DNA of 17,053 bases, from NCBI GenBank assembly GCA_027028805.1, contig JALVHX010000024.1:1-17053 (forward strand). Reading direction: 5' to 3'. The stretch comes from Desulfurococcales archaeon. Lineage in GTDB: Archaea; Thermoproteota; Thermoprotei_A; Sulfolobales; Desulfurococcaceae. Each line of letters opens with the position of its first letter. Positions within the stretch are counted from its first letter, which is position 1. Shown one piece after another: positions 2,800-14,085 of this stretch. A program made the translations under genes and the position numbers. The notes beneath the pieces were generated by a model that was given only the letters and a program-made list of their open reading frames with translations, searched no databases and was not told the origin of the DNA.

Positions 2800-2815
2800 G
2801 GAACACACTTGTTCC
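2800..2815. promoter_or_regulatory. Dyad upstream of the fumarase/Hdr operon promoter
   Basis: GGAACA (2800-2805) and TGTTCC (2810-2815) are exact reverse complements with a CACT spacer. The dyad lies 20 bp after the preceding stop codon and about 38-53 bp upstream of the TATA box at 2853, a position suited to an activator or to a weak hairpin ending the upstream transcript. Confidence 0.4.
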
Positions 2816-2851
2816 ATAGAATATATGGTACCCATGTATCCTCCCGGCAAC

Positions 2852-2863
2852 GTTTTTATAATA
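2852..2863 (+). promoter_or_regulatory. TATA box of the fumarase/Hdr/fumarate reductase operon
   Basis: GTTTTTATAATA is the only strong TATA-like element between 2780 and 2947. The predicted transcription start is near 2884. This decides the start of the first gene, because the open frame reaches back to 2809, upstream of the promoter itself. A 10-bp palindrome ATCCATGGAT (2927-2936) lies in the leader just before the ribosome binding site. Confidence 0.6.
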
Positions 2864-2946
2864 AACAGGCTGGAAGAACTATTCATTGCATCCACCGACA
2901 CACGCATCCACGCCAGCGCCTCCATGATCCATGGATGGTGGTGTTT

Positions 2947-3819
2947 TTGAGCATCAGAGAAGCGGTTATGAACGCCCTATACGACGCTATCCATAGAGCC
3001 GTGGTTTACCTGCCGCCGGATGTAAAACAGGCTATTAGGCGCGCATACGAGGAAGAAGACAACCCGGCGGCCAGGGCCCAGCTAGAAGCTATTCTACGCA
3101 ACATAGAGCTCGCGGAGAAAACAGGGAAACCCCTGTGCCAGGACACGGGGCTCCTAACACTATACGTCGAGCTCGGGAAACGCTTCCCCCTACCAGACGG
3201 GTTCCACGAGATCGTGGCCGAGGCGGCTAGGAAGGCTACACGAGAGATCCCGCTCCGGCCCAACTCCGTCCACCCGTTCACCGGCAGAAACACGGGAGAC
3301 AACACTGGGAGGCTTGTACCCTATATACACTGGGAGATAAACGATGGAGACGAGCTGAAGATAACAGTGGTGCCCAAGGGAGGAGGAGCAGAAGCTGTCT
3401 CCATGCTAAGGCTCCCCCCGCCCGGCAAGGGTGTGGAAAACGTTGTGGAGACAGTGATAGACGCGGTCCTCGAAGCCGGCGCAAAGCCGTGCGCCCCCCT
3501 CATAATAGGGGTGGGCGTGGGGGGCGGCGCGGACATAGCCATGATCCTAGCCAAGAAGGCCGCCGCACTCAGGAGGATAGGGGAGAGAAGCCCCGACCCC
3601 TCCATAGCCGGTCTCGAGGAGAAGCTCCTGGAGGCCGTTAACTCTCTGGGCATAGGCGTCATGGGCCTGGGTGGATCACACATGGTTCTAGACGTGCACA
3701 TAGAGTATGCACATAGACACCCCGCCAACTACCCCGTGGCGGTGGCCTTCCAGTGCTGGGCCGCGCGCCGAGCCACCGCCATAGTATCGAGCAGCGGAGA
3801 GTACAGGGTGTACCAGTAG
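2947..3819 (+). CDS. fumA: Fumarate hydratase class I, alpha subunit
   Basis: This N-terminal half of the two-subunit, oxygen-sensitive [4Fe-4S] fumarase interconverts malate and fumarate. With the chosen start it has 290 residues. The three cluster ligands are Cys64 in PLCQDTG, Cys182 in KPCAPLIIGVGVGG, and Cys270 in FQCWAARRA; their spacing matches single-chain class I fumarases. The segment HPFTGRNTGDN is also conserved. The frame is open from 2809, but those codons precede the TATA box and look unlike the family. The TTG at 2947 follows GGTGGTG and gives the expected N-terminus ending in YLPPDV. ATG 2935 and ATG 2968 are alternatives. The beta subunit follows after 26 bases. This is the first gene of the operon that also holds fumarate reductase, so the enzyme probably supplies fumarate to it. 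Confidence 0.93.
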   Translation: MSIREAVMNALYDAIHRAVVYLPPDVKQAIRRAYEEEDNPAARAQLEAILRNIELAEKTGKPLCQDTGLLTLYVELGKRFPLPDGFHEIVAEAARKATREIPLRPNSVHPFTGRNTGDNTGRLVPYIHWEINDGDELKITVVPKGGGAEAVSMLRLPPPGKGVENVVETVIDAVLEAGAKPCAPLIIGVGVGGGADIAMILAKKAAALRRIGERSPDPSIAGLEEKLLEAVNSLGIGVMGLGGSHMVLDVHIEYAHRHPANYPVAVAFQCWAARRATAIVSSSGEYRVYQ

Positions 3820-3845
3820 AGAACACCCAGGAGGTGACGAGACAA

Positions 3846-4457
3846 ATGACTGTCCACCACCTATCCACTCCCCTCTCAGAAGAAGATGTCCGGGGCCTCA
3901 GGGCCGGCGACATTGTTTATTTATCAGGAATAATAGTTACGGCACGGGACGCGGCCCACAGGAGAATGATCGAGTATATTGAGCGCGGAGAACCACTCCC
4001 CATAGACCTCAGGGGGCTCGCGATCTACCACTGCGGCCCCGTTGTCCGGAGAAAGAACAGTGAATGGGAGATAGTGGCGGCCGGCCCCACCACGAGCGCC
4101 AGGATGGAGCTCTACGAGGCCACCATTATAGAGAAGCTGGGCGTGAGAATGATCATAGGGAAGGGCGGCATGGGGGCCAGAACCGCCGAGGCCTGTAGGA
4201 GACACGGAGCTGTATACACCGTGTTCACGGGAGGCGCCGCCGTCCTGGCCGCCGAGGCCGTGGAGAAGGTGGAGAGAGTGGAGTGGCTGGATCTAGGCGT
4301 GCCCGAGGCCCTATGGGTCCTCAGGGTCCGCGACTTCGGCCCCCTCCTCGTCGCCATAGACTCGCATGGCAGAAACCTTATCGAGGAGACTCTTCTCAGG
4401 GCCCGCGAGAGGAGGGAGGCCGCATTATCGATCGCTAGGAAGGCCATCGAGGGGTGA
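3846..4457 (+). CDS. fumB: Fumarate hydratase class I, beta subunit
   Basis: This 203-residue C-terminal (swivelling) domain partner completes the fumarase active site with the alpha subunit. Family motifs in order are LRAGDIVYLSG near the N-terminus, then YHCGPVV, GPTTSARM, IGKGGM, and VFTGGAA, ending with the helical tail. The length is normal for the two-subunit type. The ATG at 3846 is preceded at eight bases by a strong GGAGGTGA (3830-3837), which decides the start although the frame is open further upstream into the alpha gene. Its stop overlaps the hdrA start (GTGA), so the two are probably translationally coupled. Confidence 0.93.
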   Translation: MTVHHLSTPLSEEDVRGLRAGDIVYLSGIIVTARDAAHRRMIEYIERGEPLPIDLRGLAIYHCGPVVRRKNSEWEIVAAGPTTSARMELYEATIIEKLGVRMIIGKGGMGARTAEACRRHGAVYTVFTGGAAVLAAEAVEKVERVEWLDLGVPEALWVLRVRDFGPLLVAIDSHGRNLIEETLLRARERREAALSIARKAIEG

Positions 4458-6424
4458 GCCCTGGAGTGGCTGGTGGGGAAGGAGAGAAGCCCCGTATAGG
4501 CGTATTCGTGTGCCACTGCGGCACAAACATAGCCGGGGTCGTTGACGTCAAGAAGGTGGTGGAGGAGGTCAGCAAGCTCCCCGGCGTCGTACACGCCGAG
4601 GACTATGTCTATATGTGCTCACAGATAGGCCAGCAGAAGATCATAGACGCTATACGGGAGAAGAAGCTCAACGGCGTCGTGGTCGCGGCGTGCACCCCGA
4701 GCCTCCACGGAGAAACCTTCGCCAAGGCGGTGGAGCACGGGGGGCTGAGCAGGCATAGATACGAGTTCGTATCCATAAGAGAGTATGTGAGCTGGGTTCA
4801 CTGGCACGACAGGAAAAAGGCTACGGAGAAAGCTATAAGGGAGATAGCGGCGGCGGTGGCCAAGCTCGCCGACAACAAGGTATATGAGCCGATAAGGAGG
4901 GCGGTCAAGAAAAAGGCCCTCGTCATAGGCGGCGGCATAGCCGGCATGACCGCGGCCGTTGATCTCGCCAACGCGGGTATACCCGTGGTACTGGTGGAGA
5001 AGAGCCCGACGATCGGGGGGAGGATGATACAGCTCAGCATGACTTTCCCCACACTCGACTGCGCCCAGTGCACCATAACACCCAAGATGGCGGAGGTCGC
5101 CAACCACCCCAACATAAAGCTCTACACGCTCTCAGAGGTCATAGACGTCGAGGGGCATGTAGGCAACTATAAGGTCAAGATACTGCAGCATCCCAGGATG
5201 GTCGATATAGACGAGTGCAGGCTATGCGGCTTCTGTGAGAGAGCCTGCCCCGTAGAGGTGCCCAACGAGTTCAACAGGGGTCTCGGGAAGCGCAAGGCCA
5301 TATACCTGCCGTTCGCACAGGCCGTGCCCTCGGCCTACGTCATAGACGCGGAGCACTGCACGCGGTGCGGGCTCTGTGTCAGGGCCTGCCCCGTGGACGC
5401 GATCAATCTCGACGAGAAGGAGAGGATCATAGAGGAGGAGGTTGGCTCGATAATAGTCGCCACAGGCTTCGATATATATCCGCCCGAGAACCTGCCAGAG
5501 TATGGATACGGTATATACAAGGATGTCGTGGACGCGCTCCAGTTCGAGCAAATGATAGTCCCAAGCGGGCCGACGCGCGGAAGAATAGTGAGGCTCAGCG
5601 ACGGGAAGCCCGCGAAAACAGTTGTCTTCATCCAGTGCGCCGGCAGCAGAGACGTCAACCATCTCCCCTACTGCTCAAAGATATGCTGTATGTATACCGC
5701 TAAGCAGGCAATGCTCTACAAGATGAAGGTCCCGGACGGGAAGGCATACATCTTCTACATAGACGTGAGGGCTGCGGGCAAGGGATACGAGGAGTTCTAT
5801 AAGAAGGCCCAGATGACGCCCGGCATCCACTATGTGAGGGGCCGCGTATCCAGGGTGTACAGGGAGCCCGGCGACGACAGGCTCACCGTAGAGGGAGTGG
5901 ATACTCTTAGCGGCAAACTAGTCAAGATCAAGGCTGATCTAGTCGTGCTGGCCGTCGGCATAGTGCCCCGCCTCGACCCAGAGCTGGCGTCGAAGCTCAA
6001 GATCGCTGTAGACGAGTATGGCTTCGCACAGGAGGTGCATCCCAAGCTCAAGCCCGTCGAGACAGAGGTCGGAGGAGTCTTCGTGGCGGGAGCCGTGCAG
6101 GGCCCCAAGGATATAAGCGAGAGCGTTGCACAGGCGTCCGCCGCAGCCGCGAAGGCTATGCAGCTCCTGGTCAAGGACTATGTGGAGAAGGAGCCCCTGA
6201 TAGCCGAGGTGGACGAGGAGCGGTGTGATGGATGCGGCATATGCGCCTCCACATGCCCCTACGAGGCTATAAAGATAGAGAATGGGAAGGCTCATGTAAC
6301 CCCTATACTCTGTGAGGGATGCGGCATGTGTGTATCCGCGTGCCCCGTGGGCGCCATGGAGCTCCGCAACCTCACGGATAAACAGATAACCAACATGGTT
6401 AAAGCGATCGCGAGGTGGCCCTAG
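4454..6424 (+). CDS. hdrA: Heterodisulfide reductase subunit A (bifurcating FAD protein)
   Basis: HdrA is the FAD- and [4Fe-4S]-rich core of soluble Hdr complexes, where electrons are split between ferredoxin and the HdrBC branch. It has 656 residues, as in methanogens. Visible parts in order: VCHCGTN at 19-25; FAD-binding GGGIAG at 159-164; DCAQC at 202-206; ferredoxin motifs C255-C258-C261-C265 and C302-C305-C308-C312; the CAGSRD and CSKICC cysteines of the inserted cluster region; and a C-terminal ferredoxin domain C591-C594-C597-C601 plus C620-C623-C626-C630. All cluster motifs are intact, and no in-frame TGA suggests selenocysteine. GTG 4454 overlaps the fumarase beta stop. The following mvhD, which docks on HdrA in methanogens, begins one base after the stop. 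Its electron partners in this organism are inferred, since coenzymes M and B are not expected. Confidence 0.96.
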   Translation: MSPGVAGGEGEKPRIGVFVCHCGTNIAGVVDVKKVVEEVSKLPGVVHAEDYVYMCSQIGQQKIIDAIREKKLNGVVVAACTPSLHGETFAKAVEHGGLSRHRYEFVSIREYVSWVHWHDRKKATEKAIREIAAAVAKLADNKVYEPIRRAVKKKALVIGGGIAGMTAAVDLANAGIPVVLVEKSPTIGGRMIQLSMTFPTLDCAQCTITPKMAEVANHPNIKLYTLSEVIDVEGHVGNYKVKILQHPRMVDIDECRLCGFCERACPVEVPNEFNRGLGKRKAIYLPFAQAVPSAYVIDAEHCTRCGLCVRACPVDAINLDEKERIIEEEVGSIIVATGFDIYPPENLPEYGYGIYKDVVDALQFEQMIVPSGPTRGRIVRLSDGKPAKTVVFIQCAGSRDVNHLPYCSKICCMYTAKQAMLYKMKVPDGKAYIFYIDVRAAGKGYEEFYKKAQMTPGIHYVRGRVSRVYREPGDDRLTVEGVDTLSGKLVKIKADLVVLAVGIVPRLDPELASKLKIAVDEYGFAQEVHPKLKPVETEVGGVFVAGAVQGPKDISESVAQASAAAAKAMQLLVKDYVEKEPLIAEVDEERCDGCGICASTCPYEAIKIENGKAHVTPILCEGCGMCVSACPVGAMELRNLTDKQITNMVKAIARWP

Positions 6425-6425
6425 G

Positions 6426-6848
6426 GTGTCCGGGGAGAGGGATGTATTGGTAATAGGGTTCCTGAGCAGATGGTGCGCGGGAATAGCGGCCGAGACCGCT
6501 GGAGTCAACAGGATAAAGTATTCGCCGAACATCGTCTTCATAAACCTGCCCTGCGTGAGCAGGCTCAACCCATCCCATGTCGTAGACGCATTCCTCAACG
6601 GCATAGACGGGGTGCTCATAGGCGGCTGTCTCCCCCCAGGCAACTGCCACTACAAGACCGGGAACTTCAAGGCGTTTAAACGAATGTATCTCCTCAAGAA
6701 GCTCATGGCACAGTTCGGCGTAGAGCCGGAGAGGGTTAAGATGGACTGGTTCGTCACGCCGCAATACGAGAAGATCGCGCGTGTCGCAGACTCCTTTGTC
6801 GAGGAGATAAGGCGCCTAGGCCCGGTGATGAGCCGTGGAGAAGCCTAG
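6426..6848 (+). CDS. mvhD: MvhD-type [2Fe-2S] electron transfer subunit
   Basis: This 140-residue protein of the MvhD/FlpD family normally carries one [2Fe-2S] cluster and links a hydrogenase (or formate dehydrogenase) module to HdrA. Conserved blocks are VIGFLSRWC (residues 9-17), FINLPCVSR (38-46), GIDGVLIGGC (59-68) and NCHYKTGN (73-80). Four cysteines remain: C17, C43, C68, C74. The family usually has a cysteine pair in GFCCNWC; here that pair reads Leu13-Ser14. There is also one extra residue between GGC and CHY. Four cysteines can still hold one cluster, but the coordination may differ from the methanogen protein. GTG at 6426 begins one base after the hdrA stop, and the end overlaps the next gene by 14 bases. 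Confidence 0.92.
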   Translation: MSGERDVLVIGFLSRWCAGIAAETAGVNRIKYSPNIVFINLPCVSRLNPSHVVDAFLNGIDGVLIGGCLPPGNCHYKTGNFKAFKRMYLLKKLMAQFGVEPERVKMDWFVTPQYEKIARVADSFVEEIRRLGPVMSRGEA

Positions 6849-7734
6849 CCTGGCCATAGTGCCCCTAACCTGTTGCGGCGCATGCATGCAGAGCATATAC
6901 GAGGACAGAGAGCTGATGAAGACGATAACACGCTACCGGATCATCTACTGGCCCGGCTATGCCGAGGGAGAACTGGGAGATGCCGTGGACGCCGCGATCA
7001 TAGTTGGGGTTGCGAGGACGCGGAGAGACTACGAGGCCGCGGAGAAAATGTATAGGGAGGCCGGCCTCGTAGTCATGTATGGAACCTGCTCCGTCTACGG
7101 CGGCATACCCGGGCTCACAGCCCTGGTTCCACGCGAGGAGCTCGGCGAAGACTATGCAGACACCGCGAAGCCGCCCGCAGTGCTCCGCCAGCCCAGCGTC
7201 CTAGCACCGGGATGCCCGCCCTCAGCCAGCGTCAGGAAGAGGCTTGCCGAGATCCTGGAGGCTTATCTCCGGGGCGAGAAGCCGGATAAAACAGTGTTCC
7301 TCGGAAACACGGAGAGCCTGTGCCGCAACTGTCCCCTGAGGCCACGGGATCCCGGTAGAATAGAGATGCCGGGAATCAAGAGGGTTTACGAGGGCGTCTC
7401 CATGGACAAGTGTTTCCTAGAACAGGGTATACTCTGCCTAGGCCCGGTGACAAGCGCGTCCTGCAACCATGACTGCATCAGGATGGGGCTACCCTGCACC
7501 GGGTGCGCCGGCCCGGTTCCGGGAATAGATGATGCTGGGCTCCGCTACATAGGGGCCATAGGCTCGATCCTAATGGTGAAGCGCGAGAGACAAGTAATGT
7601 TCCCCGGTCTCGCAAGGGAGCTCGACAAGATCCATGACCCGATGGGCCTCCTCTACAAATACACGTTGCCAAGGGCTAAGCTGACCCAGCTCGCGCTTAT
7701 AAGAAGAGGGCTTGCCGGGGGCGGGGAGAAGTGA
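6835..7734 (+). CDS. mvhG: Hydrogenase small-subunit homologue (MvhG-like)
   Basis: This 299-residue protein resembles the small subunit of F420-non-reducing/F420-reducing [NiFe] hydrogenases (group 3), which passes electrons from the large subunit through iron-sulfur clusters. Proximal-cluster ligands are all present: C14 and C17 in TCCGAC, C85 in GTCSVYGG, and C127 in APGCPPS. The C-terminal part has C163-x2-C166, then C193, C201, C210, C214 and C221-x2-C224 in a layout typical of MvhG, enough for two more [4Fe-4S] clusters. The length is normal. There is no twin-arginine signal, so it is cytoplasmic. The GTG start overlaps mvhD, and the stop overlaps the large-subunit start as GTGA. Its partner large subunit lacks a normal [NiFe] site, so the source of electrons is unknown although this relay looks functional. 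Confidence 0.92.
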   Translation: MEKPSLAIVPLTCCGACMQSIYEDRELMKTITRYRIIYWPGYAEGELGDAVDAAIIVGVARTRRDYEAAEKMYREAGLVVMYGTCSVYGGIPGLTALVPREELGEDYADTAKPPAVLRQPSVLAPGCPPSASVRKRLAEILEAYLRGEKPDKTVFLGNTESLCRNCPLRPRDPGRIEMPGIKRVYEGVSMDKCFLEQGILCLGPVTSASCNHDCIRMGLPCTGCAGPVPGIDDAGLRYIGAIGSILMVKRERQVMFPGLARELDKIHDPMGLLYKYTLPRAKLTQLALIRRGLAGGGEK

Positions 7735-8942
7735 GGGTTACCGAGTCCCTTCTCCTAGCCAGCGACGGCGGCATAAAGCCGGCCTCCACAACAGGATACT
7801 CTATAATAACACGTGGAAGACACGTCGAAGACATACCAAGGCTCGCATCGATACTATGCGGCACACAGTCATGGGGCCACTACCTGGCCGCTTCCAGGGC
7901 CCTGGACAAGTTGTTTGGGAGAAAAGTACCGGCTCCCGCAGAAGCTGTTAGGAGAGCCGGCCTCCTCCTAGATATAGCGCACGGCCATATACATAGGCTC
8001 TATACCGGCATACTGCCCAGGATCCTGGCCGGGAGAAGCCATCTATCCATAGATAACCATGACGAGCTTGGAGAAGCCTATAGGGGGGCCGTAGAGGATC
8101 TCGCCGAGGCGAAGACCCTTATAGGCGGGAGACCCGTCCACCCAGCCTTCACGCTACCAGGCGGCGTATCGCCCGGGGTAAGGGCGAGGCTCCCCGGGAT
8201 AAGGGAGGCGCTTGAGAAAGCCGCGGAGAAGATAGAGGCGTTCGCCGAGAAAGCCGCGGAAACAATCCGTTCAAGCAATATACAGGCAATCGCCGAATAC
8301 ACGGGGCTAGGCCGGGAGACGCTTTATGTAGCCATGGTGTGTGGGGGGGAGCCGTGTTTTATGGGGGACAGTATACGCGTCGTGGGCGAGGGCGTGGACG
8401 AGGTGTTCCCCCTAGAGGAGTACGGGGAGAGATTCAAGATAACATGTAGCGGCGGCTTCTGTAGAGCCCTGTATAGGGATGGCCGCGTAGCCGTTACAGG
8501 CCCCCTGGCCAGGATGAACGCGTGGAGAGGACTAGGGGGAAGATACCGTGATCTCGTCGAGGAGGCCAGAGGCGTGTTCGGCGGAGAAAACATGGCCAAC
8601 GCGGCCGCCGGCATCTATGCTATGGCGGCCGAGCTCCACCTGATTGCCGAGAAGCTACGCGGCCTATCCACCAATATAGGCGACGGCTCCCTGGTAGAGC
8701 TGCGTGGGAAGCCGGGGGGACGCGGCGTCGGCGGCGTGGAGGCGTCGCATGGCCTGATAATACACGAGGTCTCCGCCGACCAGCGCTACGTAGTAGACTA
8801 TGCACGCGCCCTAACCCCATCCATGATCAACATATATGCCGCCGAGAAAGCTGTCGGCGCTGCCGGCGCGCAGTGGGCCGGCATCATAATCCCTCTCTAC
8901 GGCCTATGCGGCCTAGAGCTCATGCATACATGGAGGAGGTGA
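7731..8942 (+). CDS. MvhA-like hydrogenase large-subunit homologue without a [NiFe] site
   Basis: This 403-residue protein aligns with MvhA around GRHVEDIPRLASILCGTQ (RNIEEVPRIVPRICGIC in the family, from memory) and GGRPVHPAFTLPGG. It is about 70 residues shorter. The N-terminal CxxC is C43-G-T-Q46, and the C-terminal DPCxxC is C393-G-L-E396 with His399 kept. Thus both terminal Ni thiolates remain, but both bridging cysteines are gone. The conserved R-x-E-G-H strand is missing at the N-terminus, EAPRG is E337-A-S-H-G341, so the Arg near the Fe(CN)2CO unit is His340, and only four residues follow His399, leaving no tail for a maturation protease. H2 activation is therefore very unlikely. NuoD of complex I is a known precedent for loss of these residues. 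C43, C393 and E396 might hold a single metal ion. The gene is intact and coupled to mvhG, so it is not a decaying pseudogene. Confidence 0.9.
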   Translation: MRVTESLLLASDGGIKPASTTGYSIITRGRHVEDIPRLASILCGTQSWGHYLAASRALDKLFGRKVPAPAEAVRRAGLLLDIAHGHIHRLYTGILPRILAGRSHLSIDNHDELGEAYRGAVEDLAEAKTLIGGRPVHPAFTLPGGVSPGVRARLPGIREALEKAAEKIEAFAEKAAETIRSSNIQAIAEYTGLGRETLYVAMVCGGEPCFMGDSIRVVGEGVDEVFPLEEYGERFKITCSGGFCRALYRDGRVAVTGPLARMNAWRGLGGRYRDLVEEARGVFGGENMANAAAGIYAMAAELHLIAEKLRGLSTNIGDGSLVELRGKPGGRGVGGVEASHGLIIHEVSADQRYVVDYARALTPSMINIYAAEKAVGAAGAQWAGIIIPLYGLCGLELMHTWRR

Positions 8943-8945
8943 GCC

Positions 8946-9320
8946 ATGGACATGGATGGGTTCGTGGAGGAGGTTGTCAGGATAAGTGGGAGAAACCCTT
9001 ATCTCTGCTACCAGTGCGGCATGTGTAGCGCCGTCTGCCCCGTGGCCCAGTACATGGATATCCTGCCACACCAGATCATTAGGCTGGTGCAGATGGGAGA
9101 CCCCGCGGTGCTTGAGAGCGACGCCATATGGGTATGCATATCATGCATGGCCTGCGTGGACCGGTGCCCCAGAGACGTGGGCCCAGGCATAATAATAGAC
9201 GCCCTCCGCCAGTTCAAGCTACGGAGAGGGGCCGAGAAATACGATTATTTCCAGGTACCGGAGCTGGGAGAGGCGCCGTCTCTAGCACTCGTCGCCGCCT
9301 CAAGGAAGCTGACGGGGTGA
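8946..9320 (+). CDS. hdrC: Heterodisulfide reductase subunit C
   Basis: This 124-residue ferredoxin-like protein has two [4Fe-4S] motifs: C21-x2-C24-x2-C27-x3-C31-P and C64-x2-C67-x2-C70-x3-C74-P. HdrC carries electrons from HdrA to HdrB. The helical linker between the motifs (DILPHQIIRLVQMGD) and the RDVGPGIIIDALR segment after the second motif are characteristic. There is no membrane segment, unlike HdrE-linked forms. ATG 8946 follows GGAGGTGA, which spans the stop of the previous gene; hdrB follows after seven bases. Its presence argues that hdrB is a true Hdr subunit rather than only a fumarate reductase anchor. Confidence 0.94.
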   Translation: MDMDGFVEEVVRISGRNPYLCYQCGMCSAVCPVAQYMDILPHQIIRLVQMGDPAVLESDAIWVCISCMACVDRCPRDVGPGIIIDALRQFKLRRGAEKYDYFQVPELGEAPSLALVAASRKLTG

Positions 9321-9327
9321 CGCGTAG

Positions 9328-10230
9328 ATGGCCAAGGCGCTCCTCTACTATCCCGGATGCTCTGTTAAGAGGAACTCGCCGTGGTATGAGAAAAGCGCCC
9401 TCGCGGTCCTCGAGGCTCTCGGCTACCGTGTCAAGGAGCTGGATAAATGGTACTGTTGCGGCGCAACGATAAGCTTGGCAGCCGACGACGTGATCAGGCA
9501 CCTTGGCGCGATCAGGAGCCTGATCCAGGCTGAGAAGGAGGGAGAAGCCCTAGGCACAAACGAGATGCTAACCGTCTGCCCAATGTGCTACAACGTGTTA
9601 GCCAGGGTCAATAACCTGTTGAAGCGTGACAGAGAGAAGCTCGAGACCGCGGCCAGGTATCTGCGCGACGAGAACCTTGAGAAATACTCGTTGTCGACAA
9701 GGGTTATACACGTGGTACAGGTTCTACACAGGGAGCGGGAAAAACTGGGAGAGCTGGTTAAGCGGAGGCTCGACGGCGTCCGGGTTGCCGCATACTATGG
9801 ATGCACCCTTGTCCGCCCGAAGGACGTCGCAGTCGATAACCCCGAGTCGCCCAGGGTTATGGAGGAGATCCTGAGATCAGTGGGGATCGAGACCGTCGAG
9901 TACCCCTTCAAGACTCTCTGCTGCGGCGCCTACCACTCGGTGTATAGGAAAAACATAGCTGTAGCTAACAGCGGCCTAATACTAACCGATGCCGCGGCGA
10001 GAGGCGCCGATATAATGGTGACCGTGTGCCCCCTATGCCACTACAACCTGGAGCTGGCCTACCGCTCCATGGCGCGGAAACCCGGTATAAGGGTCATGTA
10101 CCTAACGGATCTCCTCGCATACGTGATGGGGCTCGATGACGCGCTCAGCCCCGAGACCAGGTCGTTTTTGGATAAGCTCCGCGAGGCTAGGAGGGAGCTA
10201 GTGGCTACTCCTGGGGGTGGGAATTCTTGA
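9328..10230 (+). CDS. hdrB: Heterodisulfide reductase subunit B (two CCG domains)
   Basis: This 300-residue protein has two complete CCG domains: C11, C43-C44, C84-x2-C87, and C159, C198-C199, C234-x2-C237. These bind the two noncubane [4Fe-4S] clusters that carry out disulfide chemistry in HdrB. The length matches HdrB. SdhE of Sulfolobus succinate dehydrogenase and MfrE of Wolinella have the same CCG pattern and serve fumarate or succinate enzymes, so with frdB directly downstream this subunit might serve both HdrA-HdrC and FrdAB. There is no obvious membrane helix. ATG 9328 has GGGGTGA upstream. Its stop overlaps the frdB start as TTGA. The natural disulfide, if any, is unknown, as coenzyme M/B synthesis is not expected in this lineage. 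Confidence 0.94.
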   Translation: MAKALLYYPGCSVKRNSPWYEKSALAVLEALGYRVKELDKWYCCGATISLAADDVIRHLGAIRSLIQAEKEGEALGTNEMLTVCPMCYNVLARVNNLLKRDREKLETAARYLRDENLEKYSLSTRVIHVVQVLHREREKLGELVKRRLDGVRVAAYYGCTLVRPKDVAVDNPESPRVMEEILRSVGIETVEYPFKTLCCGAYHSVYRKNIAVANSGLILTDAAARGADIMVTVCPLCHYNLELAYRSMARKPGIRVMYLTDLLAYVMGLDDALSPETRSFLDKLREARRELVATPGGGNS

Positions 10231-10961
10231 GCAGCAAGGAGTCCCCTGAGACAGGGCCCCGCCCCGTCTCCGGGAAGGAGGAGGGCGGGAAGACTATCAG
10301 GATCTATGTGATGGGGAGAGCATACGAGGTGCCCGAGGGCCTGACCATACTCAAGGCCCTCGAGTACGCCGGGTTCAGGCTAACCAGGGGAGTCGGGTGC
10401 AGAGGAGGCTTCTGCGGCGCATGCGCAGTAATGTATAGGATGCCAGGCGAATACAAGCTCCGCACAGCCCTCGCCTGCCAGACGCTAGCCAGGGACGGAA
10501 TGCACCTAGTGTTCATACCATATGCTCCCATGAAGAAGCCGCGCTACGATATCGAGAAGCTGAGGCCCGACGCGGGCTCCGTGATAGCGATATTCCCCGA
10601 GGTCACAAGGTGCCTGGCATGCAACGCGTGCACAAAAGCGTGTCCCCAGGGACTACAGGTGATGGATGCTATCCAGGCCATTATACGCGGCGACATAGCG
10701 GCGGCCGCGAACCTGGCGTTTGACTGTATAGGATGCGGGCTCTGCTCGATCAGGTGTCCCGCGGAGATAAGACACGTCTACGTGTTCCAGCTCGTGCGCC
10801 GCCTCTATGGCAAATACATGCTGCCGAAGGCGAAACACGTCGAGGAGAGGATCAAGGAGATAGAGGCTGGCAAATACGATGAGGAGATGGAGAAGCTTAT
10901 GAAGCTAAGCCTCGAGGAGCTCAAGAGGCTCTACATGTCCCGCGACATAGAGAAGGCCTAG
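10227..10961 (+). CDS. frdB: Fumarate reductase/succinate dehydrogenase iron-sulfur subunit
   Basis: This 244-residue protein carries a plant-type [2Fe-2S] domain with C58, C63, C66 and C84 (GCRGGFCGAC), then C129-x2-C132-x2-C135-x3-C139-P and C167-x2-C170-x2-C173-x3-C177-P. The third motif has a full set of four cysteines (CIGCGLC), so a [4Fe-4S] rather than the usual [3Fe-4S] cluster is likely. A charged helical tail follows. Methanogen TfrB has a CCG domain fused to its C-terminus; here that domain is absent, and hdrB lies immediately upstream as a separate gene. The TTG start at 10227 is preceded by GGGGGTGGG and overlaps the hdrB stop. About 20 poorly conserved residues precede the domain. 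It should pass electrons to the flavoprotein encoded 10 bases downstream. No sdhC/sdhD anchor genes are present. Confidence 0.93.
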   Translation: MSSKESPETGPRPVSGKEEGGKTIRIYVMGRAYEVPEGLTILKALEYAGFRLTRGVGCRGGFCGACAVMYRMPGEYKLRTALACQTLARDGMHLVFIPYAPMKKPRYDIEKLRPDAGSVIAIFPEVTRCLACNACTKACPQGLQVMDAIQAIIRGDIAAAANLAFDCIGCGLCSIRCPAEIRHVYVFQLVRRLYGKYMLPKAKHVEERIKEIEAGKYDEEMEKLMKLSLEELKRLYMSRDIEKA

Positions 10962-10971
10962 GCTTCATGGG

Positions 10972-12663
10972 GTGATGGGCTTGGTATATGAAGGTTATCC
11001 GCCCGAGATGCGCGAGAAGATACGTGTAGTGGAGGAGACGCGTGAGGAGAGGCTTGGGCAACAGATACCCAAGCTAAGCCTCGAGGAGAGAGAGAAGCTT
11101 GTCAGGAAATGGCACCCGGACTATAGGGAGGATACGAAGAGGCCTGTCCGCATAGGACCCAACAAGGGCCAGGTCATATACCGTGAGGTCGCCGACCTCC
11201 TAGAGTCATGGCCGGCCGTGAAGCCGGGCGACGTGGACCTGGACAACATAGACTATGACGTAGACATATTGATTATCGGCGGAGGAGGCGCCGCGGCCAG
11301 CGCCGCTCTCTGGGCAGTGTACAGCGGCGTTAGCCCAGAAAACATATTGATCGCTACAAAGCTCCGCTTCGGCGACGCCAACACCGTTAAGGCCCAGGGA
11401 GGCATACAGGCAGCGGACAGGCCCAATGACTCGCCGGTGAGACACTATCTCGACACCATTGGTGGGGGCCACTTCGCCAACAAGCCGGAGCTCGTCAGGG
11501 CCCTTGTAATGGATGCCCCGTTCATCATAAGGTGGCTCGAGGATCTCGGCGTCATGTTCGACAAGACCGGGGAGGGAGAGATGATCGAGTATACCGGGGG
11601 AGGCGCCAGCAGGAGGAGACTGCACGCCGCCAAGGACTATACGGGCCTAGAGATCATGCGTGTGATAAGAGACGAGGTATGGAACAAGGGTGTCAACGTC
11701 CTCGAGTTCAGCCCCGCCGTCGAGCTCCTCACCGACCCGGACACCGGGGCCGTGTCGGGCGCCGTCCTGTGGAACATGGAGGTCAAGGCATACTACGTGG
11801 TTAGGGCAAAGGTCACCATACTCGCCACCGGCGGCTTCGGGCGCCTCCACCTAGCCGGGTTCCCCACCACAAACCACTACGGCGCCACAGCCGACGGGAT
11901 AGTGATGGCGTACCGTGTCGGGGCCAACCTACGCGACCTCGACTCCGCCCAGTTCCATCCAACCGGCGTCGCATGGCCCGAGGCTATACGGGGAGAGCTC
12001 ATAACCGAGAAATGCAGGAGCCTCGGGGCGCAACTGGTCAACGCCAACGGGGAGCGGTTCATAAACGAGCTCGAGCCCAGAGACGTGGTGGCCTCGGCGA
12101 TCATAAGGGAGTGCGCCGAGGGACGCGGGATCATAACACCCACCGGGGCCTGCGGCGTCTGGCTCGACCTGCCCATGATAGACAGGGTTAGGGGGGAGGG
12201 AACGATTAGGAGGAACCTGCCAGCCATGTACCGCCAGTTCATACGCCACGGCATAGATATAACCAGGGAGCCCGTGCTGACCTATCCAACGCTTCACTAC
12301 CAGAACGGGGGCATAGAGATTGATCCATGGACACACGTGCTACGGCCCGATGGAACACCTATACCAGGCCTCCTCGCCGCAGGAGAAGTAACCGGCGGCG
12401 TGCACGGAAAGAACAGGCTCATGGGCAACTCCCTCCTAGATATAACCGTGTTCGGCCGCAGAGCCGGGATAACAGCTGCGAAGCTCGTTAAAGAAATGAG
12501 CGGCAAACCCAGGATAAGCCTCAAGCACGTGGAGAGATACATGGAGGAGCTGAAGCGGCTGGGCGTGCCGGAGAACAGGAGGGCGCCCGTACTGCTCCCC
12601 GACTACCGCGGCGAGCGCGTGTTGCTGAGGAAACTGGATCTAATAGACCTTGCCCCGATATAA
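10972..12663 (+). CDS. frdA: Soluble fumarate reductase flavoprotein subunit
   Basis: This 563-residue FAD protein reduces fumarate to succinate, or the reverse. The FAD loop GGGGAAAS is at 103-110. Substrate and catalytic residues are all present: His329 (QFHPTG), Arg370 (EPRD), His442 (LHYQNGG) and Arg482 (KNRLMGNSLLD). At the site of the covalent flavin His there is Asn137 (DANTVKAQGG), so FAD is probably bound non-covalently, as in thiol:fumarate reductase. About 100 residues precede the FAD loop where most homologues have 5-15, rich in charge (MREKIRVVEETREERLG), perhaps a docking region. The C-terminal helical domain of membrane enzymes is largely missing. The start is uncertain: GTG 10972 and ATG 10975 overlap the GGGGTGAT ribosome binding site (10969-10976), so TTG 10981 may be the real start. 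It is the last gene of the operon. Confidence 0.94.
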   Translation: MMGLVYEGYPPEMREKIRVVEETREERLGQQIPKLSLEEREKLVRKWHPDYREDTKRPVRIGPNKGQVIYREVADLLESWPAVKPGDVDLDNIDYDVDILIIGGGGAAASAALWAVYSGVSPENILIATKLRFGDANTVKAQGGIQAADRPNDSPVRHYLDTIGGGHFANKPELVRALVMDAPFIIRWLEDLGVMFDKTGEGEMIEYTGGGASRRRLHAAKDYTGLEIMRVIRDEVWNKGVNVLEFSPAVELLTDPDTGAVSGAVLWNMEVKAYYVVRAKVTILATGGFGRLHLAGFPTTNHYGATADGIVMAYRVGANLRDLDSAQFHPTGVAWPEAIRGELITEKCRSLGAQLVNANGERFINELEPRDVVASAIIRECAEGRGIITPTGACGVWLDLPMIDRVRGEGTIRRNLPAMYRQFIRHGIDITREPVLTYPTLHYQNGGIEIDPWTHVLRPDGTPIPGLLAAGEVTGGVHGKNRLMGNSLLDITVFGRRAGITAAKLVKEMSGKPRISLKHVERYMEELKRLGVPENRRAPVLLPDYRGERVLLRKLDLIDLAPI

Positions 12664-12747: not shown

Positions 12748-14085
12748 TTGTCCAAGGATAAGATTGACTGGTACCGGGTCTCGAACGAGCTACACTACAA
12801 GTATAAGGGGAAGATCGAGGTTGTCCCGAAGGTACCGGTGCTTAAGCTCGAGGACTTCGCCATATGGTATACCCCGGGGGTCGCGGGGCCCTGTAAGAAG
12901 ATCAAGGAGGAGGGGCCTGACGCGTCCTTTGAGTACACTCTCCGATGGAACTATGCCGCGGTTATAAGCGATGGGACACGGGTTCTGGGCCTCGGAAACA
13001 TAGGGCCCGAGGCCGGCATGCCGGTGATGGAGGGCAAGGCCCTGCTCTTCAAGTATCTAGGCGGCGTAGACGCGGTTCCCCTAGTCATAAACGCGCGTGA
13101 TCCCGAGAAGTTCATAGAGGTTGTCAAGGCCCTTGAGCCGAGCTTCGGCGCCATAAACCTCGAGGACATAGAGAGCCCTAAGTGCTTCTATCTACTAGAG
13201 AAGCTCAACGAGATCCTGGATATCCCTGTCTGGCACGACGACCAGCAGGGCACGGCCCTCGTCACGCTCGCAGGCCTCATAAACGCGCTGAAGATCGTGG
13301 GCAAGAAGCTTAGCGAGGTCAAGATAGTGTTCGTAGGCGCCGGCGCAGCCAACATAGCCGCCGTCAAGTATACGAGGATAGCCGGGGCTGATCCCAAAAA
13401 GATGATAGTTGTGGACAGCAAGGGGATACTCCACCCAGGCCGGCCGGACATAGAGGAGCTCAAGGAGAAGAACCCGTGGAAATACAGGATCGCGATCGAG
13501 ACTAATGCCGAGGGGAGGACAGGCGGCATACCCGAGGCCCTTGAGGGAGCCGATGTAGTGATAGCAGCATCGAGGCCGGGGCCCGGGGTGATCAAGAAGG
13601 AGTGGATAAAGAAGATGGCTGACGACCCCATAGTCTTCGCCGAGGCTAATCCCGTCCCAGAGATATGGCCATGGGAGGCAAAGGAGGCCGGGGCAAGGAT
13701 CGTGGCCACTGGTAGAAGCGACTTCCCCAACCAGATAAACAACAGCCTCGGCTTCCCCGCAGTGTTCCGCGGAATACTAACGGTGCGTGCTAGGAAGATG
13801 ACTGATTCAATGTTCATAGCCGCCGCCTACGCCATAGCGAGATATGCGGAGAAGAAGGGTATACACGAGGAATACATTGTACCGACAATGGAGGAGGCCG
13901 AGATGTATGTTGAGGAGGCTGTGGCGGTGGCGGAGAAGGCAATTGAGGAGGGCGTGGCTAGGAGAAAGCTGGGGAGAGACGAGCTGGAGGCCGAGATAAG
14001 AGAGCTAATATATAGGCCCCGGCGCTACATGGATCTAGCGCTCAAAAACGATCTGATAAAGATCTATCCACCGTACCCGAGGTAG
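12748..14085 (+). CDS. NAD(P)-dependent malic enzyme
   Basis: This 445-residue enzyme converts malate to pyruvate and CO2 with reduction of NAD(P), or runs in reverse to fix CO2. Family residues are visible: Tyr41 in YTPGV, Lys97 in MEGKA, the metal ligands Glu139-Asp140 in NLEDIESP and Asp164/Asp165 in WHDDQQGTA, and the dinucleotide loop VGAGAANIA at 197-205. [10 protein letters not shown] and [10 protein letters not shown] are also typical of the short prokaryotic type. There is no phosphotransacetylase domain. The start is TTG at 12748 with GGGGTG seven bases upstream; the nearby ATG at 12743 is out of frame. It has its own promoter directly after the fumarase/fumarate reductase operon, so it extends the same C4 pathway (pyruvate-malate-fumarate-succinate). 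Cofactor preference cannot be judged from the sequence alone. Confidence 0.95.

Follow-up and report, generated by a model that had tools for sequence, protein, structure and literature searches.

An MvhA-type hydrogenase subunit without bridging cysteines in a Hdr-Mvh-fumarate reductase operon of a Desulfurococcales archaeon: a candidate structural shell

What does the large subunit of a [NiFe] hydrogenase contribute to its host once the ligands of its metal site have been lost? This question is raised by a gene encoding an MvhA homologue, here MvhA', in a 17,053-nucleotide stretch of DNA (the window, contig JALVHX010000024.1 of assembly GCA_027028805.1) from a Desulfurococcales archaeon that is probably heat-loving. 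In [NiFe] hydrogenases the first cysteine of each of two CxxC pairs is a terminal Ni ligand and the second bridges Ni and Fe. A sequence-only reading of the window had reported that MvhA' has kept both terminal cysteines and replaced both bridging ones, and had proposed that the protein is kept for another use. With little better than even confidence, we propose here that MvhA' has been retained as the shell of a former group 3c [NiFe] hydrogenase within a Hdr-Mvh-fumarate reductase complex whose H2 branch has become disconnected. The gene and its two motifs (codon positions computed from the start of the open reading frame, ORF) are the following.

7731..8942, + strand: MvhA', group 3c [NiFe]-hydrogenase large-subunit homologue without bridging cysteines, 403 amino acids
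7857..7868, + strand: codons of the L1 motif, C43-G-T-Q46
8907..8918, + strand: codons of the L2 motif, C393-G-L-E396

Homology across most of the subunit places MvhA' with the MvhA/VhuA-type (group 3c) large subunits of [NiFe] hydrogenases. It matched the NCBIfam VhuA model over residues 21-378 (1.8e-21, 76 bits, far under the 800-bit curated cut-off), the Pfam NiFeSe_Hases family (2.2e-06, 27.4 bits, cut-off 25.8) and the MvhA/VhuA chains 9sfi_g (4.8e-23) and 5odc_F (3.5e-13) of the PDB, and on these matches a chance homology was rejected. The motifs were found as first read, C43-G-T-Q46 and C393-G-L-E396, in an intact frame whose GTG start overlaps the MvhG stop codon; H50 in L1 and H399 in L2 are both retained. 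All 27 intact relatives in the alignment carry cysteine at the four motif positions where MvhA' reads CxxQ and CxxE. The alignment also bore out the other reported losses, namely the absence of the RxEGH strand (its conserved columns are gaps in MvhA'), E-A-S-H-G where EAPRG is expected, and the lack of a maturation tail, just four residues lying beyond H399. A NuoD assignment was rejected, as the window protein matched no NuoD model at E<=1e-3 and has cysteines in L1 and L2 (a relative from genome G023 gave a weak NuoD match, 8e-05, versus 3.6e-17 for VhuA). The NuoD-like pocket suggested at first is a less apt model than MbsL of membrane-bound sulfane reductase (MBS), since NuoD-type chains are devoid of the cysteines that MbsL and MvhA' retain.

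For brevity, MvhA proteins without CxxC pairs, and their operons, are called dead, and CxxC-bearing ones intact. A search with the single MvhA' sequence returned only the window's own protein (7998 candidates scored), and a four-member profile found three more proteins among 7997 scored; two were of the G023/G014 type, and the third, P0004, was new and is known by its sequence. A sequencing error behind Q46 and E396 is very unlikely because four further proteins, from G001, G014 and G023 plus P0004, are also without both bridging cysteines, and an error of sequencing or assembly was rejected as the source of the loss. The terminal cysteines are kept and the bridging ones lost in all five proteins, with variable residues at positions 46 and 396. 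In the order window, G001, G014, G023 and P0004, the residues at position 46 are Q, D, D, D and E, an acid or amide in every case, and those at position 396 are E, G, E, E and G. H399 is kept in the window protein alone (1/5), which is also the only one where the Arg of EAPRG is replaced. G014, G023 and P0004 have no cysteines other than the two terminal ones and G001 has one; within residues 204-244 the window protein carries four, as two C-x4-C pairs (C204/C209 and C239/C244). The four dead lineages all retain nine of the 27 columns that are invariant in the 27 intact relatives, including C43 and C393. The chance that two named columns are both kept is about 0.016-0.018 when columns are treated as exchangeable, a moderate test that makes the retention of the terminal cysteines suggestive, not conclusive.

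MvhA' is encoded within a single series of genes on the + strand (fumarase alpha and beta, HdrA, MvhD, MvhG, MvhA', HdrC, HdrB, TfrB/FrdB-like, FrdA and malic enzyme) that appears to couple fumarate/succinate chemistry to ferredoxin. The other members are the following.

2809..3819, + strand: class I fumarase alpha (start uncertain)
3753..4457, + strand: class I fumarase beta (start uncertain)
4454..6424, + strand: HdrA; 26/26 conserved cysteines kept; E196->M, H418->Q
6426..6848, + strand: MvhD homologue; 1/5 otherwise conserved cysteines lost (C14->S)
6835..7734, + strand: MvhG homologue; 12/12 conserved cysteines kept
8946..9320, + strand: HdrC; 8/8 conserved cysteines
9328..10230, + strand: HdrB, two CCG domains; 10/10 conserved cysteines
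10227..10961, + strand: TfrB/FrdB-like iron-sulfur subunit; 12/12 conserved cysteines
10972..12663, + strand: FrdA/TfrA-like flavoprotein
12748..14085, + strand: malic enzyme

The operon thus brings together the Hdr, MvhG, MvhD and MvhA-type genes of the HdrABC-MvhAGD complex of methanogens (PDB 5ODC series), with the MvhG and HdrABC cysteines kept. It differs from that complex in the absence of the NiFe bridging ligands, in an MvhD that is short of one to three cysteines in operons of the window type, and in the additional TfrB/FrdA, fumarase and malic enzyme.

To see what had changed along with MvhA, cysteine columns conserved in >=80% of intact loci were scored, using 25 chosen intact loci (21 to 25 per gene). 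These columns numbered 26 in HdrA, 12 in MvhG, 8 in HdrC, 10 in HdrB, 12 in TfrB and 1 in FrdA, 69 in total, and the dead operons retain every one that could be scored, the FrdA of the Bipolaricaulota locus L089 being too partial. Losses of conserved cysteines in the dead operons are confined to MvhA and MvhD. Of 61 MvhD rows, with duplicates counted, 51 have all five cysteines, and seven of the ten incomplete rows, one of them a duplicate record, come from operons with a dead MvhA: the window retains 4/5, G001, G014, G023 and the G023 duplicate 2/5 each, and the Bipolaricaulota dead sets 4/5. The remaining three rows are an additional L099 copy and a truncated fragment that is present twice. 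Eighteen complete MvhD rows belong to loci in which no MvhA match was found, where the cysteines are kept for another reason, perhaps other donors. The window itself, with C14->S, does not have the complete MvhD cysteines for [2Fe-2S] entry to the flavin adenine dinucleotide (FAD) of HdrA.

A second change was found in HdrA, where Glu196 is present in 45/45 short HdrAs outside dead operons and in 0/6 within them. It is also absent from all 14 long HdrAs, whose fused MvhD domain is, by eye, short of three to five cysteines; four of the 69 rows in this census were set apart (L104 and L137, which have E196, and two unusual long HdrAs that do not). H418 is no clean marker, being H in 35/45 short HdrAs. 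The [2Fe-2S] cluster of MvhD is reported to feed the bifurcating FAD, over a crossing of >30 A whose mechanism is described as unknown (PMC12350162, PMC6019823). Because the cysteine and Glu196 losses coincide and MvhD feeds the bifurcating FAD, these comparisons indicate that the H2 site and the MvhD entry to HdrA have changed together, twice.

Two side observations concern the same subunits. HdrAs of about 800 amino acids in Hdr-Frd loci (L057, L059, L060, L061, L065, L067, L102, L123, L127, L128 and others) have a Cys-poor fused MvhD domain and no Glu196, mostly with no hydrogenase gene nearby, and form a wider class without an MvhD port. At the bacterial locus L099 (2644-6377), a TfrB/FrdA pair is accompanied by HdrA-like proteins and three copies of MvhD, of which one is short of a cysteine.

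The relationship of dead to intact operons was then examined. TfrB-like matches, with the window genome counted, occur in 11/214 genomes of the order (E<=1e-20), 12/229 of the class and 16/398 of the phylum sample (both at E<=1e-15). The operon type with a CxxC-bearing MvhA was also found in records named Thermoplasmata, Bipolaricaulota/Acetothermia, Anaerolineales and others, in a scan from which the best 80 of 553 confirmed loci were kept. In G010 an intact MvhA stands in the same core gene order as in the window. G006, G018, G027 and G156 show this arrangement with malic enzyme placed upstream, and contig fragments from G141, G094, G038 and G474 are consistent with it. Direct relatives of this type, G010, G141 and G006 among them, share the core gene content of the window and differ from it in having both CxxC pairs, five MvhD cysteines and HdrA E196. 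Among 42 distinct MvhA-like proteins, window included (11 matches in other contexts and identical sequences left out, some rows partial), six are without CxxC pairs, namely the window, G014, G023, G001 and two from Bipolaricaulota; the remaining 36 have Cys at each motif column covered.

In a tree of HdrA+HdrB+TfrB+FrdA, the four dead archaeal operons of known context (window, G001, G014 and G023) formed one group with support 100, P0004 being outside the tree. The intact G010 was sister to this group (support 83), and the deeper branching of the intact archaeal operons was weak (32-63). The dead Bipolaricaulota pair (L089/L098) was placed elsewhere, beside intact Anaerolineales operons (100), and is a second, independent case of ligand loss in MvhA. 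In L089 (1776-7869), CxxC-bearing and dead HdrA-MvhD-MvhG-MvhA sets stand in tandem and could form a mixed dimer. Of the two Bipolaricaulota genomes, G554 holds such tandem sets, and in G555, of unstated completeness, the CxxC protein used as query matched the dead copy only. The sequence-only reading had taken normal CxxC pairs in close relatives as grounds for its refutation. Such relatives do exist (G010, G141, G006 and others), yet what they show is the descent of MvhA' from a CxxC protein; they do not make the window copy an artefact. As for earlier descriptions, SdhA is reported beside Hdr and hydrogenase genes in Culexarchaeia (PMC9723716), and HdrABC with MvhDGA in Acetothermia, with no annotated fumarate reductase (PMC6092417). 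No Hdr-Mvh-Frd operon with a dead MvhA was found described in the portions available of open-licence papers, which is not proof of absence.

Whether the dead genes are still maintained was assessed from the ratio of nonsynonymous to synonymous substitution rates (dN/dS) of ten operon genes in one genome pair (G014 vs G023), using stop-to-stop frames. MvhA' gave the highest value of the ten (0.188). MvhD and MvhG gave 0.032 and 0.072, and the remaining seven ranged over 0.034-0.155, FumB being raised as well (0.155). The identity between the two genomes was 81% for MvhA' and 92-98% for the other operon genes. These data showed that MvhA' is under purifying but relaxed selection. Over longer distances, MvhA identity fell from 52-53% in two intact pairs to 26-32% in four dead-to-intact pairs, and MvhD identity from 65-72% to 50-56%. 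HdrA showed no comparable drop (65-71% dead-to-intact vs 70-75%), nor did FrdA (76-79% vs 72-76%) or TfrB (64-72% vs 61-65%), and the falls were slight for MvhG (39-47% vs 46-51%) and HdrB (46-48% vs 54-55%).

From the observed homology, operon, pattern of losses, accompanying MvhD and HdrA changes and selection, we infer that MvhA' takes part in a complex with the following history. In the ancestral complex, electrons from H2 would have passed from MvhA through MvhG and the [2Fe-2S] cluster of MvhD to the FAD of HdrA, to be split between ferredoxin and a path from HdrC/HdrB through TfrB and FrdA to fumarate; alternatively, the route would have run in reverse, with succinate. In the dead clade, loss of the H2 site and damage to the MvhD-to-flavin port would have stopped the module from feeding H2 electrons. 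The present complex would most likely exchange electrons between ferredoxin at HdrA and fumarate/succinate at FrdA via HdrC, HdrB and TfrB, with MvhA', MvhG and the altered MvhD retained as structural subunits. C43 and C393, the former terminal Ni ligands, may staple the N- and C-terminal loops together through a disulfide or a bound metal. A precedent is ElpA, a homologue of the catalytic subunit FdhA that is without the molybdopterin domain and is a subunit of a Hdr complex (PMC12350162); Elp-Hdr of Methanothermobacter differs in its FdhA origin and in receiving electrons via an F420H2-oxidising subunit and an intact [2Fe-2S] ElpC. The fumarate end resembles thiol:fumarate reductase TfrAB in its FrdA/TfrA and FrdB+HdrB-type modules, but in the window HdrB and the TfrB-like subunit are separate genes and HdrA, HdrC and Mvh parts are added. 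The first interpretation is partly supported as a whole: that the protein is kept for another use is borne out to the extent of the lost H2 site, the conserved operon and the purifying selection; the fumarate reductase partners, the MvhD and HdrA changes, the intact relatives and the Bipolaricaulota case go beyond it.

Several observations weigh against the retained shell. Uncoupled transfer from ferredoxin to fumarate would, from the redox potentials, waste energy. MvhG keeps 12/12 cysteines in every dead operon, and it is not obvious why a purely structural module should need three wired clusters; this weak point leaves room for a repurposed pocket. The dead MvhD proteins of the window and of Bipolaricaulota keep 4/5 cysteines, which in number would be enough for a [2Fe-2S] cluster. 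A universal staple is made less likely by the two Bipolaricaulota dead copies, which keep neither terminal Cys position (one Cys remains in the L1 stretch of L098, in a column that depends on the alignment). Hdr-Frd loci in which no MvhA or MvhG was found exist, so the shell is dispensable elsewhere. With TfrB taken singly, the best-scoring relatives of the window are the intact G141 (72%) and G010 (69%), ahead of the dead ones; the four-gene tree groups the dead operons.

A rival reading gives the emptied pocket a new redox job, as in MBS, in which a small sulfur compound or other donor or acceptor would react at the MvhG proximal cluster beside C43/C393 and be coupled by the complex to ferredoxin and fumarate/succinate. 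The retained terminal cysteines (5/5), the acid or amide at position 46 (5/5), the 12/12 MvhG cysteines and the altered residues flanking the proximal CxxC of MvhG in both dead lineages all fit this proposal, as does the C-x-x-acid fingerprint of Pyrococcus furiosus MbsL (6u8y_L), a hydrogenase-derived subunit in which each pair has likewise held on to its first Cys and exchanged the second, there for an acid. MbsL is, however, of group 4 type and belongs to a membrane complex with a three-Cys proximal cluster and an unrelated operon. The MBS proximal cluster with three Cys ligands and a shortened loop is reported to do the chemistry, the two retained MbsL cysteines not being catalytic or needed for activity (PMC7684303), and the same authors see MBS as a stage towards complex I. 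Judged by the fingerprint, an MBS-like mechanism is possible; it is not supported at the MvhG cluster, because the CxxC loop of the window MvhG keeps its length and cysteines, four of them proximal, although ligation itself was not seen. No Mrp-type membrane arm was present among the operon ORFs scanned, the flanking ORFs lying outside the family scan. Moreover, MvhD, the known route to HdrA, is short of cysteines (three of five gone in G001/G014/G023), the Bipolaricaulota copies have no terminal cysteines, and the host has a separate MbsL-like protein. We consider this reading unlikely, and its extension, a soluble group 3c-derived counterpart of MBS in which a sulfur or small-molecule electron module replaces H2 as mid-potential partner of ferredoxin and fumarate/succinate, rather more so. 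If true, group 3 and group 4 hydrogenases would both have undergone the same conversion, via the same two ligand positions.

The MbsL-like protein of the window genome (G000:C200; L183 1240-2361) has the motifs C-V-E-D and C-A-P-D, and its best PDB match is P. furiosus MbsL, with C-V-P-E and C-P-P-D at the equivalent places. Separately, residues 13-17 of the window MvhG read C-C-G-A-C, an extra Cys13 standing beside Cys14 at the proximal-cluster CxxC; adjacent cysteines are reported at the corresponding cluster of complex I (PMC7684303).

A mononuclear Zn or Fe site, structural or catalytic, made from C43, residue 46 and C393, is also rather improbable. It would account for the conservation of both cysteines and Q/D/E46 in all five proteins, and for G014, G023 and P0004 holding just these two cysteines. 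The original version, with E396 as ligand, holds for C43 and C393 (5/5) but is weakened by a Gly at 396 in 2/5 and by H399 being kept in 1/5; moreover, for MBS, with the same two cysteines, no metal is mentioned in the available part of PMC7684303.

A relic drifting to loss and carried along by its operon would agree with the raised dN/dS and the 81% identity of MvhA', but we regard it as quite improbable, and a simple pseudogene was rejected on the dN/dS evidence. The ratio of 0.19 is far under 1, all five proteins have uninterrupted frames, the adjacent genes in the window and in G001 abut on or overlap this one, and the altered MvhD and MvhG are strongly constrained.

A working hydrogenase with unusual ligands is hardly conceivable and H2 activity of MvhA' very unlikely: terminal cysteines are kept and HypD is encoded in the genome, but the bridging cysteines, the conserved Glu of RxEGH and the tail after H399 are all gone, on which grounds this candidate was rejected, and HypD is explicable by other large subunits such as the four-Cys group 4-type one on contig C99 of the window genome G000. 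HypD was found in 12/14 genomes searched, including all four dead-operon genomes, and G001, G014 and G023 encode a large subunit that resembles FrhA, has normal motifs and scores under the frhA cut-off; the hosts thus probably still make [NiFe] hydrogenases. A search of the window genome (78% complete) with MvhA' matched the window only.

The retained shell remains our preferred reading of MvhA'. Two independent natural cases are now at hand in which a Hdr-linked hydrogenase lost its metal ligands and MvhD lost cysteines while the other conserved cysteines stayed, and the loss of ligands repeats the MBS pattern. The same cases point to HdrA Glu196 as tied to the MvhD input into the bifurcating flavin, and make this residue a direct target because the crossing of electrons from MvhD to the flavin is unsettled. 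Taken together, the case suggests how an energy complex of this kind can give up hydrogen and still keep its parts.

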